From Bacillota bacterium (GTDB lineage: Bacteria; Bacillota; Clostridia; Peptostreptococcales; Anaerovoracaceae), in assembly GCA_017397825.1 (NCBI GenBank), contig JAFQHT010000113.1, forward strand, positions 1-32,871: DNA of 32,871 nt, written 5' to 3'. The notes beneath the pieces are model-generated. The model ran no database searches. It was not told the DNA's origin and worked only from the letters and a program-made list of their open reading frames with translations. A program made the position numbers and the translations under genes. Shown here one piece after another: positions 49 to 20,933 of this stretch; positions within the stretch are counted from its first letter, which is position 1; each line of letters begins with the position of its first letter.

Positions 49-789
49 TTAGTAATAGAATCCTGTATTTTCGTCTGAATATTCCTTTACTCTTGCTTCG
101 TAAGCTTCCATTGCCTCTTTTTCAAAGGCCAGCTCCACGTCGCCTGCACCGATTTCTTTGAGCAGCCATTTTGCAAATGGCGGATTGAGTACCAGTACAG
201 GACCGATAACGTAAGTTCCGAGGAAGTTATTTCTGCGGACACCTTCCTTAGTAATTTCAGGATTGAGTCCAGGTCCGCGTACTGTGTCGAATACACCTTC
301 GCCGGCTTCACCATCCCAGTATGAATGGGTGAACTGGCTCTTGTAGCCTACGATGTCCATCGCAGTTTCGCCGTCGACAAATTTCGCAAGATAAAGAGAA
401 TTGAATCTCTTCATCATGTCCCTCTTTGCATGAATCGGGAAAATTGCCAGACCGCAGTCTTCGCTGCCGTTTGTGTCAGTGATTCTGCCGCCGAAAACTT
501 CAAGGGCATTGCCTGTTACAAGGAAGTGTACGCCTGCATCAATCATTTCGACAATTTTCGCCTTATACTGAGCAAGCTTCTCAACTGCCAGTCTCTGGCC
601 TATTTCTGTAAGAGTTCCCATGTAAATCAGATCCGGTGTTTTTTCCATGAAACAAGGCTCACCCACCAGATGTGTTTCCACCACTTCGATTTCAGGGCAG
701 GATTTTTTTAAGTATGTTATGTTTTCCAGATCTCCGTAAAGGTTGGCGATTTCAGGAAAAAGCACTTCAATTCTGATAGTCTTGTCCAT
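49..789 (-). CDS. GatD-like class I glutamine amidotransferase homologue lacking the catalytic Cys and His
   Basis: 246 residues, similar to GatD, the glutaminase partner of MurT that amidates lipid II glutamate. The N-terminal EVLFPEIANLYGD block, the central FTHSYWDG block and the C-terminal GTYxxGPVLxLNP block are all recognisable. The nucleophile elbow, normally ICGGYQ-like, reads VTGNALEVFG (residues 91-100), so Thr92 sits where the cysteine belongs. The second motif, normally GTYLHGP, reads GTYVIGP (191-197), with Ile195 in place of the histidine. Glutamine hydrolysis by the usual mechanism is therefore unlikely. The start overlaps the MurT-like stop by one base (TAATG) and is preceded by a strong GGGAGGAG site, so this is the last gene of a three-gene operon. 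The family call is firm; the function is open (structural subunit, free-ammonia use or another chemistry). Confidence 0.85.
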   Translation of the reverse strand: MDKTIRIEVLFPEIANLYGDLENITYLKKSCPEIEVVETHLVGEPCFMEKTPDLIYMGTLTEIGQRLAVEKLAQYKAKIVEMIDAGVHFLVTGNALEVFGGRITDTNGSEDCGLAIFPIHAKRDMMKRFNSLYLAKFVDGETAMDIVGYKSQFTHSYWDGEAGEGVFDTVRGPGLNPEITKEGVRRNNFLGTYVIGPVLVLNPPFAKWLLKEIGAGDVELAFEKEAMEAYEARVKEYSDENTGFYY

Positions 790-2162
790 TAATTTGCTCC
801 TCCCTTCATAAGTTCACGTACTTTGGCAGCAACTCTGTTGCCAAGGCCGATGGAGTCTGTTCCGTAAAGTACATATACATTGTCATTTTCAAAAAGCTTC
901 AGCTGGTCAGGCGCATCGATTTCCTTTTCGCTGTAGCTGAGCTTTTCTTCAGGAACTCCCGCAAGGAGCAGTCTCAGCTTGTGGTCAAGTCTTCTCGGTC
1001 CGCAGAGGACGATATTCTTGATGCAGTCCTGGTTGAGGAACTCAAAGTCGCAGTCATAGAGCCAGCATGTGTTTTCGGACCAGTGCTTCATGTCCCCCTG
1101 GCAGCTGTTCATAAGGATGATTTCCTTGTCACCAGGAAGTGTTGAAATATAGTCAAAAACTCTGGATGTTGCGAAAGCATTCTTTTCCTTGGCAAGAAGC
1201 TTTATGAGGGTCTTGTCCCCTATTTTTTCTTCGTGAAGTCTGGAACCTACGATATTGAGCTTTTCAAAGAAAGACTCAATTTTTTCGTGGGAGTAGCCCA
1301 TCTGACGGAGAAGTGCCACTGCTGATACAACGTTATAAATGTTGAAAACACTTTCGTTGAGCAGTTTGTAGTGGCCTGTGCCTTCTGCATCTTTCACGTC
1401 GATTGTCATATCCGCCACGTTTACATTGATACCTGCGTAATCGTACTCAGGGGCTTTGAATCCGCATACAGGGCAGTATGCTTTACCAATGTGGTTATAT
1501 CTTAAGTATTCATATTCCAGCTTGTTATGGCAGTCAGGACAGATCTGAATGTCATTGATAAGGTTGATGCACTCCTTGATGTCCCCTTCCATTTCTTCAA
1601 TGCCGAAGTATGCTCTCTGGTTTTCAGGTGCAATGGCAGAGGAAATCAGGCAGTCAGCGTTTACAACCAGCTTGGTTTCCTTCGGGATATACTTGGTCAG
1701 AATGTCCCCAATATATTCAGGATGACCGTTTCTCATGATTGAGTCACGGGAAAGGTTTGTGATGAGCATGTAGTCCGGCTTCATGTAAGGGAAAACGCGG
1801 ACTGCAGATCTTTCGTCGATTTCGAAAAGACCAATCTTGTGCTTGCACTTGCCGGAAATTGTGGAGCCGTAAATCAGGCTGGAAGCAATTCCGGAATTGA
1901 TGTTGGAACCCATCTTGTTGTTAAGTACGTTGTGACCGTCCATGGTAAGCATGTCCAGCAGCATGTTGCTTGTGGTTGTCTTGCCGTTGGTACCTGTCAC
2001 TGCAATGATTTTTTCAGGCTTGGCAGCGTACTTTAGGAATCTTGGGCAAATTTTAAGTGCCAGCACTCCCGGAAAGTTTGTGCCGTTATGCTTGGTTATT
2101 TTCAGCGCCACAATGGACAGTTTGGCTGCCCAGAGAGCAATATAGTATCTTAAAATTTCCAT
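789..2162 (-). CDS. MurT-like Mur ligase family protein (DUF1727 C-terminal domain)
   Basis: 457 residues with MurT architecture. The ATP-binding loop GTNGKTTT is at 57-64. A four-cysteine zinc ribbon lies inside the central domain (C208, C211, C230, C233). A DUF1727-type C-terminal domain ends near 450. In MurT-GatD, MurT supplies the ATP-dependent ligase half and an aspartate that completes the GatD triad, within a GRDTSW-like motif. Here that motif reads SENTCW (362-367), with Asn364 at the aspartate position, and the NPAG-like motif is also altered (around 326-330). The start has an AAGGAGGT site inside the end of the ATP-grasp gene (13-bp overlap). Amidation of lipid II is the nearest known reaction, but the degenerate residues here and in the GatD-like partner argue for a different activity. 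Confidence 0.85.
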   Translation of the reverse strand: MEILRYYIALWAAKLSIVALKITKHNGTNFPGVLALKICPRFLKYAAKPEKIIAVTGTNGKTTTSNMLLDMLTMDGHNVLNNKMGSNINSGIASSLIYGSTISGKCKHKIGLFEIDERSAVRVFPYMKPDYMLITNLSRDSIMRNGHPEYIGDILTKYIPKETKLVVNADCLISSAIAPENQRAYFGIEEMEGDIKECINLINDIQICPDCHNKLEYEYLRYNHIGKAYCPVCGFKAPEYDYAGINVNVADMTIDVKDAEGTGHYKLLNESVFNIYNVVSAVALLRQMGYSHEKIESFFEKLNIVGSRLHEEKIGDKTLIKLLAKEKNAFATSRVFDYISTLPGDKEIILMNSCQGDMKHWSENTCWLYDCDFEFLNQDCIKNIVLCGPRRLDHKLRLLLAGVPEEKLSYSEKEIDAPDQLKLFENDNVYVLYGTDSIGLGNRVAAKVRELMKGGAN

Positions 2163-3172
2163 TCAGGAGCGACCTCCTTGATCTTTGGTATAATTCCGAT
2201 TCCTCCAGGTGTCTGTCCCGGCAGCTGCCAGAAATCGTGAGCGCAGTAGTTGTTTCCTTCAATGATTGCAGGACCGTTCGGTGTGATTGCCACGTCCCAG
2301 CCCACGTATCTCATCTGAGGCACAACCTTGGCTGCTCTCTTGGCCATTTCAACTGCTTCCTTTACATAAGGAACTTTGTAGCCAAGAAGCTCAACGCCGG
2401 TATTAGGATGCTTTGTGTAGTGCATGCCTGCAGTAGTATCGCCGGAGTGTGCTGGGAAAAGGAATTCCCCTGTTTCCATGTCCACAGGTCCGTGAAGGCC
2501 ATAGTTATCAACGATTCTGCCGTCCTTGCCCATCTTGAAAACTGCAAAGAGGCAGTGTGGCTCGCCCTGAGCATCGAGCATTGTTATGATTCTGATTGTG
2601 TTTACTGAGTGAGGATAAAGCTTGGCAACATCCGGATGATTTTCGATAACATCTTCGATAGTTGCAAAACCCTTTTCCTTTATATATTCTGCGAAAGCCT
2701 TCGCATCAGCGAAGTCCTCAGTCTTAAGAAGTTCACATCCGATACCGCAGGAAAGGTCTTTCATCTTTGCGAAAATTTTCTGTCTTGATTCAAAAAACTT
2801 CACAACATCTTCTTCAGTGGCTGTTTCAAGGTCGATACATTCTCTTCCGATATAGTCCTTGAAAACTTCATTGAATTCGTTCTTGTTATTGAAAATATGT
2901 GCATAATCATGGTCATTCATAAACATCATCAGCTTTTTGCTTCTGAAACGTGTCAGGTAAGTGTCACGCTGTTTATGATTCAGATCCCAGAACTCAAAAG
3001 TAACATAATCATTATAGCCACAGCCGTATCTGACCATGGAATTTAAAATATCGCAGAAAAGAAATGCTTTGTTCTTTCCTGATCTTTTATGTGCATTATC
3101 AAGAACTTTGAAAAACTTTTCAAAGCTTGCGCCTTTAAAAACTCTCATGTAATACTGTAATTTATTTTCCAT
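2150..3172 (-). CDS. Sugar-transfer-associated ATP-grasp family protein
   Basis: 340 residues that look like the ATPgrasp_ST (PF14397-like) family, often labelled hexapeptide transferase family protein. Visible features are NTIRI at 191-195, a VDN / GPVDxETG stretch at 221-235, HPxTG near 255-259, GWDVAITPNGP at 291-301 and IEGNN at 304-308; the last two form the usual metal/ATP-binding end of an ATP-grasp domain. The N-terminal 180 residues are helical-looking and less distinctive. ATP-grasp enzymes join a carboxylate to an amine or thiol through an acyl phosphate; the substrate is unknown. It is the first gene of the operon with the MurT-like and GatD-like genes. It has an AAAGGAG site 8 bases before the ATG and an extended -10 promoter upstream. 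Confidence 0.8.
   Translation of the reverse strand: MENKLQYYMRVFKGASFEKFFKVLDNAHKRSGKNKAFLFCDILNSMVRYGCGYNDYVTFEFWDLNHKQRDTYLTRFRSKKLMMFMNDHDYAHIFNNKNEFNEVFKDYIGRECIDLETATEEDVVKFFESRQKIFAKMKDLSCGIGCELLKTEDFADAKAFAEYIKEKGFATIEDVIENHPDVAKLYPHSVNTIRIITMLDAQGEPHCLFAVFKMGKDGRIVDNYGLHGPVDMETGEFLFPAHSGDTTAGMHYTKHPNTGVELLGYKVPYVKEAVEMAKRAAKVVPQMRYVGWDVAITPNGPAIIEGNNYCAHDFWQLPGQTPGGIGIIPKIKEVAPEWKF
2165..2178 (-). promoter_or_regulatory. Hairpin over the MurT-like ribosome-binding site
   Basis: The Shine-Dalgarno sequence of the MurT-like gene lies in a perfect inverted repeat, AGGAG-GTCG-CTCCT in the sense direction, inside the last codons of the ATP-grasp gene. Ribosomes finishing the ATP-grasp frame would melt it, so translation of the ligase is probably coupled to the upstream gene. 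The stem is only 5 bp, so the effect is an inference. Confidence 0.4.
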
Positions 3173-3319: not shown

Positions 3320-4798
3320 TTACAGAATTATACAGATAAAATAGTCCTTTCCTTCATCGCTTATTCTCTGCAATGATTTCTGAACTTTACTGCGGAGAAC
3401 TTCGGGAACACTGTCGACTTTGTTAGCCATTTGTTCTGTAACCATATCTTTCAGTGTTTTGCCGAAAAGATTAGTTTCCCAGATGTCACTTTCTTCTCCG
3501 GCAAACTGCTGGGATAAAAGTTCTGCAAGATCCTGAGACTGGCTCTCTGTTCCTACGACAGGTGAAATTTCTGTAGTGATATCAGTTTTTATTATGTGCA
3601 TACACGGTGCCTTTGCTTTCATCCGCACCCCGTACTTGCCGCCCTGCCTGAAAACCTCCGGTTTGTCGAGAACCATTTCTGAAAGTTTAGGTGCCACAAT
3701 ACCATAATCATTAAGTTCTGCCTGTTTCAGCGCTCCCTTGACACTGTCATATGCCACTTTTGCTTCTGAATATTCTTTAAGAAGCATAAACAGCTGACTG
3801 TCATTTTCCACCGGTGCGCCCATGAGTTCTTCTATGACCTTATAATAAAGGCTTTCTTCCAGACGTGGCTCAATGGTTACAATTCCCCTGGACATATCAG
3901 TGCTCACGATTCTTATACTTTTTATTATTTTTCCGTCAGCCAGAAATCCGCAGCCTGATATTGCCTCACCTATAGTCTCAAAACTGTTCATCCACGTGCA
4001 GACATTTTCTACAATAGTTGATTTTATCCAGTGGCTTACCGGCAACGCATCAAGATACCCCGGCAGCATAAAATCAATCTGACACACAGGAAACTGATTG
4101 AGTATCTGCCCGAAAAGATTATCAAAGTCTTCCTCGCTCATACGCTGGCAGTTGGTCAGTATCACCGGTATATTGTATTTATCCTCCAGCTGTAGCGCAA
4201 GTTCCTTACTTTTCTGACTCTGAGGAGTTGCAGAATTAAGTACTACCACGAAAGGCTTTTTCAGTGTCTTCAGTTGATTTATTGTTTTTTCTTCGGCTTC
4301 AACATAGTTATTCCGTGGAATTTCACCAAAAGATCCATCGGTTGTCACCACAATTCCCACCACAGAATGATCGCATATAACCTTTTCTGTACCTATCTCT
4401 GCTGCCTGCGCAAAAGGAATTTTTTCATCACTCCATGGTGTTGAAACCATCCGTGCCTTACCATCTTCTTTATCACCCAATACCCCAGGAACCATATATC
4501 CCACACAGTCTACAAGCCGTACTTTAAGTTCATTGCCGCTGTTTGTAGATACCAGAACTGAATCCGGCGGAATAAATTTCGGTTCTGTCGTTGTTATTGT
4601 CTTTCCTTCCCCACTCTGCGGCAGTTCATCCATGACTCTGGTTTTTTCATATTGATTGGTCATATTAGGAAAAACCAGTATATCCATAAACCGTCTTATA
4701 AAAGTTGACTTGCCGGTTCTCACCGGTCCTGTGATTCCAAGATAAATATCGCCCCCGGCCCGCATGCCGATATCCTCATATATTGATGTACTTAACAT
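3320..4798 (-). CDS. spoIVA: Stage IV sporulation protein A (spore coat basement layer ATPase)
   Basis: SpoIVA is the cytoskeletal ATPase that polymerises on the forespore outer membrane in the mother cell and anchors the spore coat. From the ATG at 4798 the protein is 492 residues, the same length as the Bacillus subtilis protein. It shows the Walker A loop GPVRTGKST (24-32), DELPQSGEGKTITTTEPKF, LVDCVGYMVPG and the conserved extreme C terminus ending in IIL. An upstream in-frame start would add 11 residues, but the ATG at 4798 has a strong GGAGGA site 5-6 bases upstream, so it is preferred. The gene is monocistronic between its own promoter and terminator. Its presence shows the organism belongs to a spore-forming lineage. 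Confidence 0.97.
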   Translation of the reverse strand: MLSTSIYEDIGMRAGGDIYLGITGPVRTGKSTFIRRFMDILVFPNMTNQYEKTRVMDELPQSGEGKTITTTEPKFIPPDSVLVSTNSGNELKVRLVDCVGYMVPGVLGDKEDGKARMVSTPWSDEKIPFAQAAEIGTEKVICDHSVVGIVVTTDGSFGEIPRNNYVEAEEKTINQLKTLKKPFVVVLNSATPQSQKSKELALQLEDKYNIPVILTNCQRMSEEDFDNLFGQILNQFPVCQIDFMLPGYLDALPVSHWIKSTIVENVCTWMNSFETIGEAISGCGFLADGKIIKSIRIVSTDMSRGIVTIEPRLEESLYYKVIEELMGAPVENDSQLFMLLKEYSEAKVAYDSVKGALKQAELNDYGIVAPKLSEMVLDKPEVFRQGGKYGVRMKAKAPCMHIIKTDITTEISPVVGTESQSQDLAELLSQQFAGEESDIWETNLFGKTLKDMVTEQMANKVDSVPEVLRSKVQKSLQRISDEGKDYFICIIL

Positions 4799-4831
4799 AT
4801 AACTCCTCCGCTTTTGCCTGCTTTTTTTCAA

Positions 4832-19912: not shown

Positions 19913-19997
19913 TGTTAAATTAAGGCCATAAAACAAATCGTATTAATTTTCCAAAAGGGAATTTCAGATGAATGAAAGTTTTAAGGGGGTAAATAAA

Positions 19998-20933
19998 ATG
20001 ACTAAAAGATTATCAGAAACAAGAAAAAAATTATCAGTTTTAGTACTGGCATTAGCACTTATTTTCACAGCAGTTCCTGCTACAGCACATGCAGATGATA
20101 TCTACGATGATGATTACATCGTATCCAATGTTTCTTCTCTGGCAGCACCGACAGGACTTGCAACAGTAACAAGAGATAATGACGAAATCCACCTTAAATG
20201 GAATCCTGTTTCAGGAGCCAGCGGATATGAAGTATGGCGCTACTCTTCAACTTATTCCAAATGGATACTTGTTGAAAGAGAAAACGAAAATAATGCAGAA
20301 ATCGATGATCTGCTTTCAGCAACAATCTACAAATTCAGAGTAAGAGCTTTCGCAGTGAAGTCTGATGGCTCTGTAGTATATGGTGATTACTCAAGCAGTT
20401 TCAGAACAGTTACAGAACCTAACGATGTAAATAACCTGAAAGCAACTTCAAAGACTAAATCAACAATTACACTTTCCTGGAGTCCTGCCAAGAGAGCTGA
20501 TAAATATCAGGTATACCAGTATGACAAGGCTTCCGGCACATGGGACAGACTCATCACAACAAGCAAGACTACTTATAAAGTAACAGGTCTGGATGATGGC
20601 ATTTCTTATAAGCTCAGAGTCCGCCCATACAGAGAGGCTCTCGGCTACAAGTACTATGGCGACTGGGAAACAATCACAGTTAAGACTACAACTTCAGGAA
20701 GTTCTTCCTCCTCAGGCGCAGTAACTTTAGCAAAAGCTAAAAGTATCGCTCTCAACTACGCAGGCGTAAGTTCATCTGCAGCTAATTTCATAAAAGCTGA
20801 AACTGACTACAATGACGGCGTAAAAGTTTACGAAATTGAATTCGTTGCAGGCGATTACGAATATGAATTTGAAATCGGTGCAGCAAGCGGAAAGGTTCGC
20901 GACTACGACAAAGATTACAGATGGGATGATTAA
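19998..20933 (+). CDS. Secreted protein with two fibronectin type III domains and a C-terminal PepSY domain
   Basis: 311 residues from the ATG at 19998, which has AAGGGGG 8 bases upstream; an in-frame ATG at 19968 would only lengthen the signal region. A Sec signal peptide (KRLSETRKKLSVLVLALALIF core) probably ends at AHA-DD (about 33). Two FN3 domains follow (about 49-139 and 142-230), with LKWNPVSGASGYEVWR and LSWSPAKRADKYQVYQY strands. After a Ser-rich linker (231-241) comes a PepSY-like domain (about 242-305) with AKSIALNYAGV, VYEIEF and EYEFEI. There is no sortase motif or membrane anchor. It stands alone with its own terminator. The role is unknown: FN3 suggests surface or polysaccharide contact, and PepSY often inhibits or chaperones proteases. 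Confidence 0.85.
   Translation: MTKRLSETRKKLSVLVLALALIFTAVPATAHADDIYDDDYIVSNVSSLAAPTGLATVTRDNDEIHLKWNPVSGASGYEVWRYSSTYSKWILVERENENNAEIDDLLSATIYKFRVRAFAVKSDGSVVYGDYSSSFRTVTEPNDVNNLKATSKTKSTITLSWSPAKRADKYQVYQYDKASGTWDRLITTSKTTYKVTGLDDGISYKLRVRPYREALGYKYYGDWETITVKTTTSGSSSSSGAVTLAKAKSIALNYAGVSSSAANFIKAETDYNDGVKVYEIEFVAGDYEYEFEIGAASGKVRDYDKDYRWDD

Follow-up and report, generated by a model that had tools for sequence, protein, structure and literature searches.

Clostridial MurT-GatD-like pairs lacking the glutaminase catalytic residues as candidate glutamine-independent amide ligases

What could a MurT-GatD pair do once its glutaminase residues have been replaced in both partners? The question is raised by a three-gene operon in contig JAFQHT010000113.1 of the Bacillota bacterium assembly GCA_017397825.1 (Clostridia, Anaerovoracaceae). 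The whole 32,871-nucleotide stretch analysed, called the window here, is a single contig from a draft genome of 2.02 Mb with an estimated completeness of 82%. A first-pass annotation had described three genes overlapping by 13 bp and 1 bp, and this was borne out by the minus-strand open reading frames (ORFs) listed below; coordinates within genes were computed from the ORF starts at 2162 (MurT-like) and 789 (GatD-like).

2150..3172, minus strand: ATPgrasp_ST (PF14397) protein, 340 aa (ORF and Pfam match, E 2e-40), accessory to the MurT/GatD-like pair
789..2162, minus strand: MurT-like ligase, 457 aa (MurT_C PF08353, E 2e-22, and Mur_ligase_M)
1068..1082, minus strand: MurT-like residues 361-365, W-S-E-N364-T, with Asn364 at the place of Staphylococcus aureus MurT Asp349
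49..789, minus strand: GatD-like pseudo-glutaminase subunit, 246 aa, Arg128 kept (GATase_3 PF07685, 24.6 bits)
499..516, minus strand: GatD-like residues 92-97, T-G-N-A-L-E, versus I-C-G-G-Y-Q in S. aureus
205..207, minus strand: GatD-like Ile195 at the place of the catalytic His189

Comparison with solved structures placed S. aureus GatD and MurT first and other MurT-GatD entries next. An adjoining gatD partner gene was present, and the window MurT contained all of the ligase features, with roles assigned by alignment to published enzymes: MurT_C, a P-loop (GTNGKT, 57-62), an acceptor Asn (Asn87), Mg-site acids (Glu114, Asp116, and Glu117), and a Cys4 zinc ribbon (208, 211, 230, and 233), as well as the loop RDSIMRNGHPE (139-149), hinge Arg308, and interface Trp367. 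The GATase_3 score of the GatD-like protein was below the 27-bit cut-off. The cut-offs of the NCBIfam equivalogs NF052463/4 and NF045635/6 were not reached either, but the triad-intact pair of Ruminococcus albus 7 also falls below them, so these cut-offs are non-discriminating.

At the places of the catalytic Cys, the catalytic His, and the MurT Asp, the window pair carries Gly93, Ile195, and Asn364. Alignment to the solved S. aureus chains agreed with the earlier assignment of Ile195 to GatD His189 and of Asn364 to MurT Asp349, and the altered NPAG-type motif was also recovered, the Lys-Asn-Pro stretch being changed to K325-E-K-N-A in the window. The nucleophile had been placed one residue too early: the ungapped alignment sets Cys94 on Gly93, and Thr92 corresponds to S. 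aureus Ile93. The statement that the whole triad is replaced is correct under the S. aureus definition, but in Streptococcus pneumoniae a GatD Asp has been proposed as the third residue instead (PMC6085368; citations here and below refer to the portions of the papers that were available), and its aligned counterpart, Asp20, is retained in the window. Sequencing error was ruled out as the cause of the triad loss, since the same state is found in 71 rows from many assemblies.

These rows came from a census in which 131 GatD sequences were read: 56 had both Cys and His (canonical), 72 had neither, and three had one. One of the 72 (L202) lies among canonical relatives and was assigned by hand to the partial rows because its MurT keeps Asp and the rows closest to it are canonical; the other 71 are called dead here, and partial rows belong to neither set. 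With the GatD-like protein as query, 47 of 148 genomes of the window's family had a match, of which 32 were read, with loci chosen by score and 15 low scorers left unread, yielding 30 dead and two canonical copies. A profile search of the class gave a match in 198 of 391 genomes, of which 70 were read, also chosen by score: the best 30 of the 198 (29 dead, one canonical) and 40 lower among the matches listed (four dead, four partial, 32 canonical). Thus 33 were dead, four partial, and 33 canonical, and dead copies occur in at least 33 of the 391 genomes. Recurrence elsewhere, which the first-pass annotation had put forward as a check, was evident for the MurT/GatD-like pair, whose dead form was found across at least 14 coded families of this one class. 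Five duplicate loci were excluded from all counts. Among loci L074-L100, six had no GatD row and L076 duplicated L038; the weak matches L101-L141 were unused. L065, with a partial MurT, counts among the 71 and was left out of the trees, and L255 and L290, which are also dead, stand outside the 71.

Outside the class, nine of 398 genomes of the phylum had a match (E 1e-28), all nine keeping the His motif; eight had an intact Cys motif, and in L274 the pattern matched another stretch. Divergent dead copies may exist there among matches weaker than this threshold. The only named cultured carrier of a dead pair found was Vescimonas fastidiosa, while the triads of R. albus 7 and Monoglobus pectinilyticus were intact.

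In a tree with the catalytic columns masked, a single branch separated the dead rows (65 of 86; Shimodaira-Hasegawa-like approximate likelihood ratio test, SH-aLRT, 100) from all others. A larger masked tree under a simpler model placed 70 of 130 rows on the dead side (SH-aLRT 99); both were quick trees, neither rooted nor bootstrapped. In the larger tree none of the four partial rows groups with the dead clade, and separate changes are required to explain them. Their changed dyads, L199 (Gly-His), L200 (Cys-Asp), L202 (Gly-Ser), and L215 (Gly-His), occur among canonical relatives and look like separate losses. Some genomes contained two dead pairs, one N-type and one T-type. At L045:5329-11463, genes for an ATP-grasp enzyme, an NlpC/P60 protein, and two dead pairs of different type lie in one run. 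Two genomes of a single family (L255 and L290) encode, in addition to another dead type, a second and highly divergent dead GatD with an IGTT/VGTS motif (the L255 MurT has HYTNTYY).

Neither the catalytic Cys nor the catalytic His was present in any of the 71 dead GatD rows. The Gly-Gly-Gly stretch, a proposed oxyanion hole, and Glu-Asn-His were each found in 56/56 canonical rows and were mostly replaced in the dead rows, where the remnants were the second Gly (1/71), the third Gly (19/71), the Asn (17/71), and the His of Glu-Asn-His (3/71). The dead rows share a new motif, Thr-Gly-Asn-(Ala/Ser)-x-Glu, with Thr92 in 69, Gly93 in 68, Asn94 in 66, Ala or Ser95 in 68, and Glu or Asp97 in 67 of the 71; for Thr92, Gly93, and Asn94 this is more than chance would give. 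The residue at Asp20 was Asp or Glu in 70/71. Arg128, the counterpart of S. aureus Arg128, was kept in 64/71 dead and 56/56 canonical rows; this Arg captures glutamine in the canonical enzyme (PMC6085368), and given its retention the pocket may still be able to hold an amino acid.

Analysis of the partner proteins showed that the ligase site was retained. Lys61, Asn87, Glu114, Asp116, and Arg308 were each present in 69 of the 71 dead MurT partners and Glu117 in 70; in S. pneumoniae MurT, Lys59, Asn85, and Asp112/Glu113 are required (PMC6085368). Interface Trp367 was found in 67/71 and the zinc cysteines in at least 70/71. At the Asp349 position there was Asn in 40, Thr in 10, Asp in 10, Glu in nine, and Ser and Arg in one each. 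The 10 rows that retain the MurT Asp include lineages L154, L155, and L160, so the GatD dyad can be lost without a change at this MurT residue. The MurT loop RDQxDRxGE has become RDSxxRNGH in the dead clade, with His147 in 62/71 dead and 0/56 canonical rows; there is an insertion before Asn364, and the DNAAD region, which possibly holds the muropeptide, is also changed. Other Mur ligases have a loop histidine on the Mg site that is absent from canonical MurT (PMC6085368). By our reading His147 does not occupy that position, and nothing further is drawn from it.

Of 20 gene comparisons, 12 had a finite synonymous rate (dS), although two of these were near saturation, and in the 12 the ratio of nonsynonymous to synonymous substitution rates (dN/dS) ranged from 0.004 to 0.14; the other eight were saturated. 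A canonical-GatD profile detected no canonical GatD in the 57 dead-copy genomes, 52 of which have a completeness of 90% or more and a contamination of 5% or less. Its matches were the genomes' own dead copies and frames of approximately 480-550 aa, which were taken for CobQ. Two extra short matches (G422 and G509) were also dead, and G091 gave no match at all, its own dead copy included. The 82%-complete draft of the window's genome likewise had no canonical GatD copy, its other GATase_3 match being HisH in a his operon (named by reading), and MurT_C occurred there only once; the second, canonical murT-gatD pair that the first-pass annotation had suggested seeking was not found in either set. 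Matches to Mur_ligase_C in this genome were read as MurC, MurD, MurE, and MurF, with MurE carrying DNPR, which we take to be the meso-diaminopimelate motif. Two further Mur-type ligases were also encoded: L285 is MurE-like, roughly 500 aa long, and lacks DNPR, and L289 is MurF-like, 691 aa long, and extended considerably at its C terminus.

Catalytic residues have thus been lost in both partners, the GatD dyad being gone and MurT Asp349 usually replaced, and both folds appear to be kept as judged by sequence similarity alone. The single-branch clade, purifying selection, and intact ligase site favor the earlier proposal of a changed activity over decay. The explanation that we prefer, with a probability of roughly 0.6, is that the dead MurT-GatD pair is a glutamine-independent amide ligase. 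The MurT-like and GatD-like proteins would form a complex in which an amide bond is made without glutamine hydrolysis. The retained ligase residues suggest that MurT would use ATP to convert a carboxylate to its acyl phosphate, the likeliest carboxylate being the D-Glu alpha-carboxyl on lipid II or lipid I, as in the substrate of characterised MurT-GatD. The nucleophile would be a free amine not produced by GatD, and it cannot derive from glutamine by known chemistry. The pseudo-GatD would serve as a scaffold, as MurT needs GatD even without glutamine use, a dependence shown for S. aureus only. The scaffold role is well grounded, because S. aureus GatD-C94G, which has lost glutamine-dependent activity, supports ammonia-dependent amidation of lipid II, though solely at pH 8.5 and with both subunits present, neither of which is active alone (PMC3266927). 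The former glutamine pocket, rebuilt around Thr-Gly-Asn-(Ala/Ser)-x-Glu with the capturing Arg retained, may form the amine site, and in the window's family the ATP-grasp protein may often join as a second ligase.

We lean toward a small amino acid as the amine, with ammonia close behind, because the pocket motif is fixed rather than drifting, Arg128 stays, and two dead pair types coexist; ammonia is also less favored because the MurT acceptor loop is changed. In its fullest form, which is tentative, the proposal is that these pairs are peptide ligases that add an amino acid or another amine, not ammonia, to the D-Glu alpha-carboxyl of peptidoglycan precursors, with the former glutaminase as amine-binding subunit and, in one family, the ATP-grasp enzyme extending the branch. 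Finding that Arg128 was kept made this form slightly likelier.

Several points weigh against a glutamine-independent ligase acting on peptidoglycan precursors. Activity, acceptor, and amine are all predicted. Asn at the MurT Asp349 position proves little by itself, because 10 of the 71 dead pairs keep Asp and the equivalent Asp-to-Ala change in S. pneumoniae leaves 28% activity (PMC6085368). S. aureus MurT-D349N activity is described as abolished in the figure legend and severely reduced in the text (PMC6113224). The retained Arg128 would equally fit a pocket that still binds glutamine, and the changes in the MurT loop and DNAAD region mean that the acceptor is perhaps not lipid II. The neighboring genes lend little support to a peptidoglycan role, being mostly housekeeping with one NlpC/P60 gene in one locus. 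Finally, the direction of change is assumed to be loss rather than gain of Cys-His; the root was not inferred, and loss is taken from the presence of Cys-His in other class-I glutaminases.

The alternative that survives best is a special case of the preferred reading, in which the pair is a free-ammonia lipid II amidase that still makes D-isoglutamine with ammonia taken directly from the cytoplasm. We consider this possible though doubtful. It is consistent with the amidation by S. aureus GatD-C94G and MurT in vitro, with the apparent replacement of the canonical pair (0/57 dead-copy genomes have both), and with human carbamoyl phosphate synthetase I (CPS1), a class-I pseudo-glutaminase supplied by free ammonia (PMC4655335). 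CPS1 likewise has a dead class-I glutaminase domain beside an intact synthetase, which in the dead clade applies at residue level only. Human CPS1 has Ser for Cys, whereas in the dead clade a new motif is fixed and replacement extends to both Cys and His, the greater part of the oxyanion loop, and in most pairs the partner Asp; ammonia use belongs to CPS1 and for the dead clade is a proposal only. At pH 7.5, however, S. aureus MurT-GatD uses neither NH3 nor NH4Cl (PMC3266927), neither the newly fixed motif nor the retained Arg would be required for ammonia, and two different dead pairs in some genomes would be odd if both performed the same amidation.

It is unlikely that the three genes form a two-ligase pathway for some other glycan- or lipid-linked polymer or metabolite, as the first-pass annotation had proposed. 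The changed MurT acceptor loops would fit such a pathway, and 22 of the 38 dead loci of the window's family have an ATP-grasp gene no more than 200 bp from the pair (on the other strand in L050 and L054). It is absent from the remaining 16, from all 20 dead loci in other coded families, and from the three named loci of unknown family. Adjacency of all three genes was thus seen in the window's family only, the trio is not supported as a functional unit, and on these counts the MurT/GatD-like pair is the core and the ATP-grasp protein an accessory. Both N-type and T-type pairs can carry an ATP-grasp gene, the T-type proteins being 29-34% identical to that of the window, and Asp293, Glu305, and Asn307 were invariant in an alignment of 16 sequences. 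Relatives are encoded away from the pair in dead-copy genomes of other families (G422, G435, G509, and G528), and a paralogue in the window's own genome lies in a cluster that, from reading of its ORFs, looks like surface-polysaccharide synthesis and export, a point in favor of the pathway. No solved relative of the ATP-grasp protein was found at E 0.01, and no paper naming PF14397 (ATPgrasp_ST) was found in the literature searched.

Genes adjacent to the dead pairs gave little sign of another polymer. No polysaccharide-synthesis genes stood out among neighbor clusters present in four or more loci, which mainly reflected housekeeping synteny (MiaB, GpsA, PlsY, Der, a cardiolipin-synthase-like protein, an M50 peptidase, ClpB, GntR, and Nth) with none specific; one five-locus cluster read like a MATE-type transporter, and an annotated oligosaccharide flippase lies beside the Vescimonas pair. 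GpsA, PlsY, Der, SpoIVA, and M50 were verified by profile and most other names came from reading sequences. In this neighbor set, overlapping ORFs masked some of the GatD or MurT ORFs, and L064 was dropped, its trio having been seen separately. In the window itself, the SpoIVA gene (3320-4831) adjoins the trio, showing that the host has this sporulation protein at least, and a 321-aa secreted-looking protein (19968-20933) has repeats that by eye resemble fibronectin type III domains.

The parallel once drawn with cyanophycin synthetase (CphA) is also weak. Both systems combine an ATP-grasp enzyme and a Mur-type ligase, but the domains are fused in CphA and encoded as separate ORFs here, where the ligase is of MurT type with a zinc ribbon and a GatD partner. 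The window MurT-like protein scored 26 bits against the CphA model TIGR02068 (cut-off 850 bits), compared with 193 bits for MurT, 67 for archaeal pMurC (cut-off 560 bits), and 37-40 for several MurE models. Archaeal pseudomurein genes also include Mur-domain ligases and an ATP-grasp enzyme, with MurT-GatD pairs and MurT-like proteins without GatD (PMC11915815); the likeness lies in this combination of enzymes.

There is little to recommend a GatD-like hydrolase with relocated catalytic residues, such as Thr92 or Glu97, releasing an amine from glutamine or some other donor: both positions and the glutamine-capturing Arg are well conserved, but His is lost in 71/71 and two of the three oxyanion-loop glycines are mostly lost, and no class-I amidotransferase is known to us to work in this way. 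A non-catalytic or regulatory remnant, for which the lost glutaminase site could be cited, is very improbable given six ligase residues in at least 69/71 partners, low dN/dS, and a distribution over at least 14 families.

Compared with the solved MurT-GatD enzymes (S. aureus 6gs2/6h5e and S. pneumoniae 6fqb), the dead clade thus shares the adjacent gene pair, the Mur middle domain, MurT_C, the Cys4 zinc ribbon, the ATP and acceptor residues, the interface Trp, usually the pocket Arg128, and GatD by sequence similarity. It differs in a GatD without Cys and His, oxyanion-loop glycines that are mostly replaced, Asn, Thr, or Glu usually standing for MurT Asp349, a changed acceptor loop, and, in one family, the ATP-grasp partner.

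In the available parts of the literature on MurT and GatD, drawn mostly from non-subscription journals, no description of a triad-less clade was found, and the annotation hides it: NCBI lists the V. fastidiosa subunit as a hypothetical protein. MurT-GatD is a studied drug target whose glutamine chemistry is regarded as its defining step, yet this large clade has abandoned the step in nature while retaining the ligase. Gly is fixed at the nucleophile position and 40/71 pairs have Asn for the partner Asp, the same changes that switch off glutamine use in S. aureus (PMC3266927; PMC6113224), making the clade a natural experiment on the role of GatD besides glutamine hydrolysis. Peptidoglycans substituted at D-Glu exist as a wall type, and we know of no gene assigned to this substitution; the parts of the literature searched contained no ligase for substitution of the D-Glu alpha-carboxyl or for type-B walls. 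The dead pairs hint that gut Clostridia modify their envelope in a way not yet described and, if the amino-acid ligase reading is true, would supply the enzymes for D-Glu-substituted peptidoglycans.

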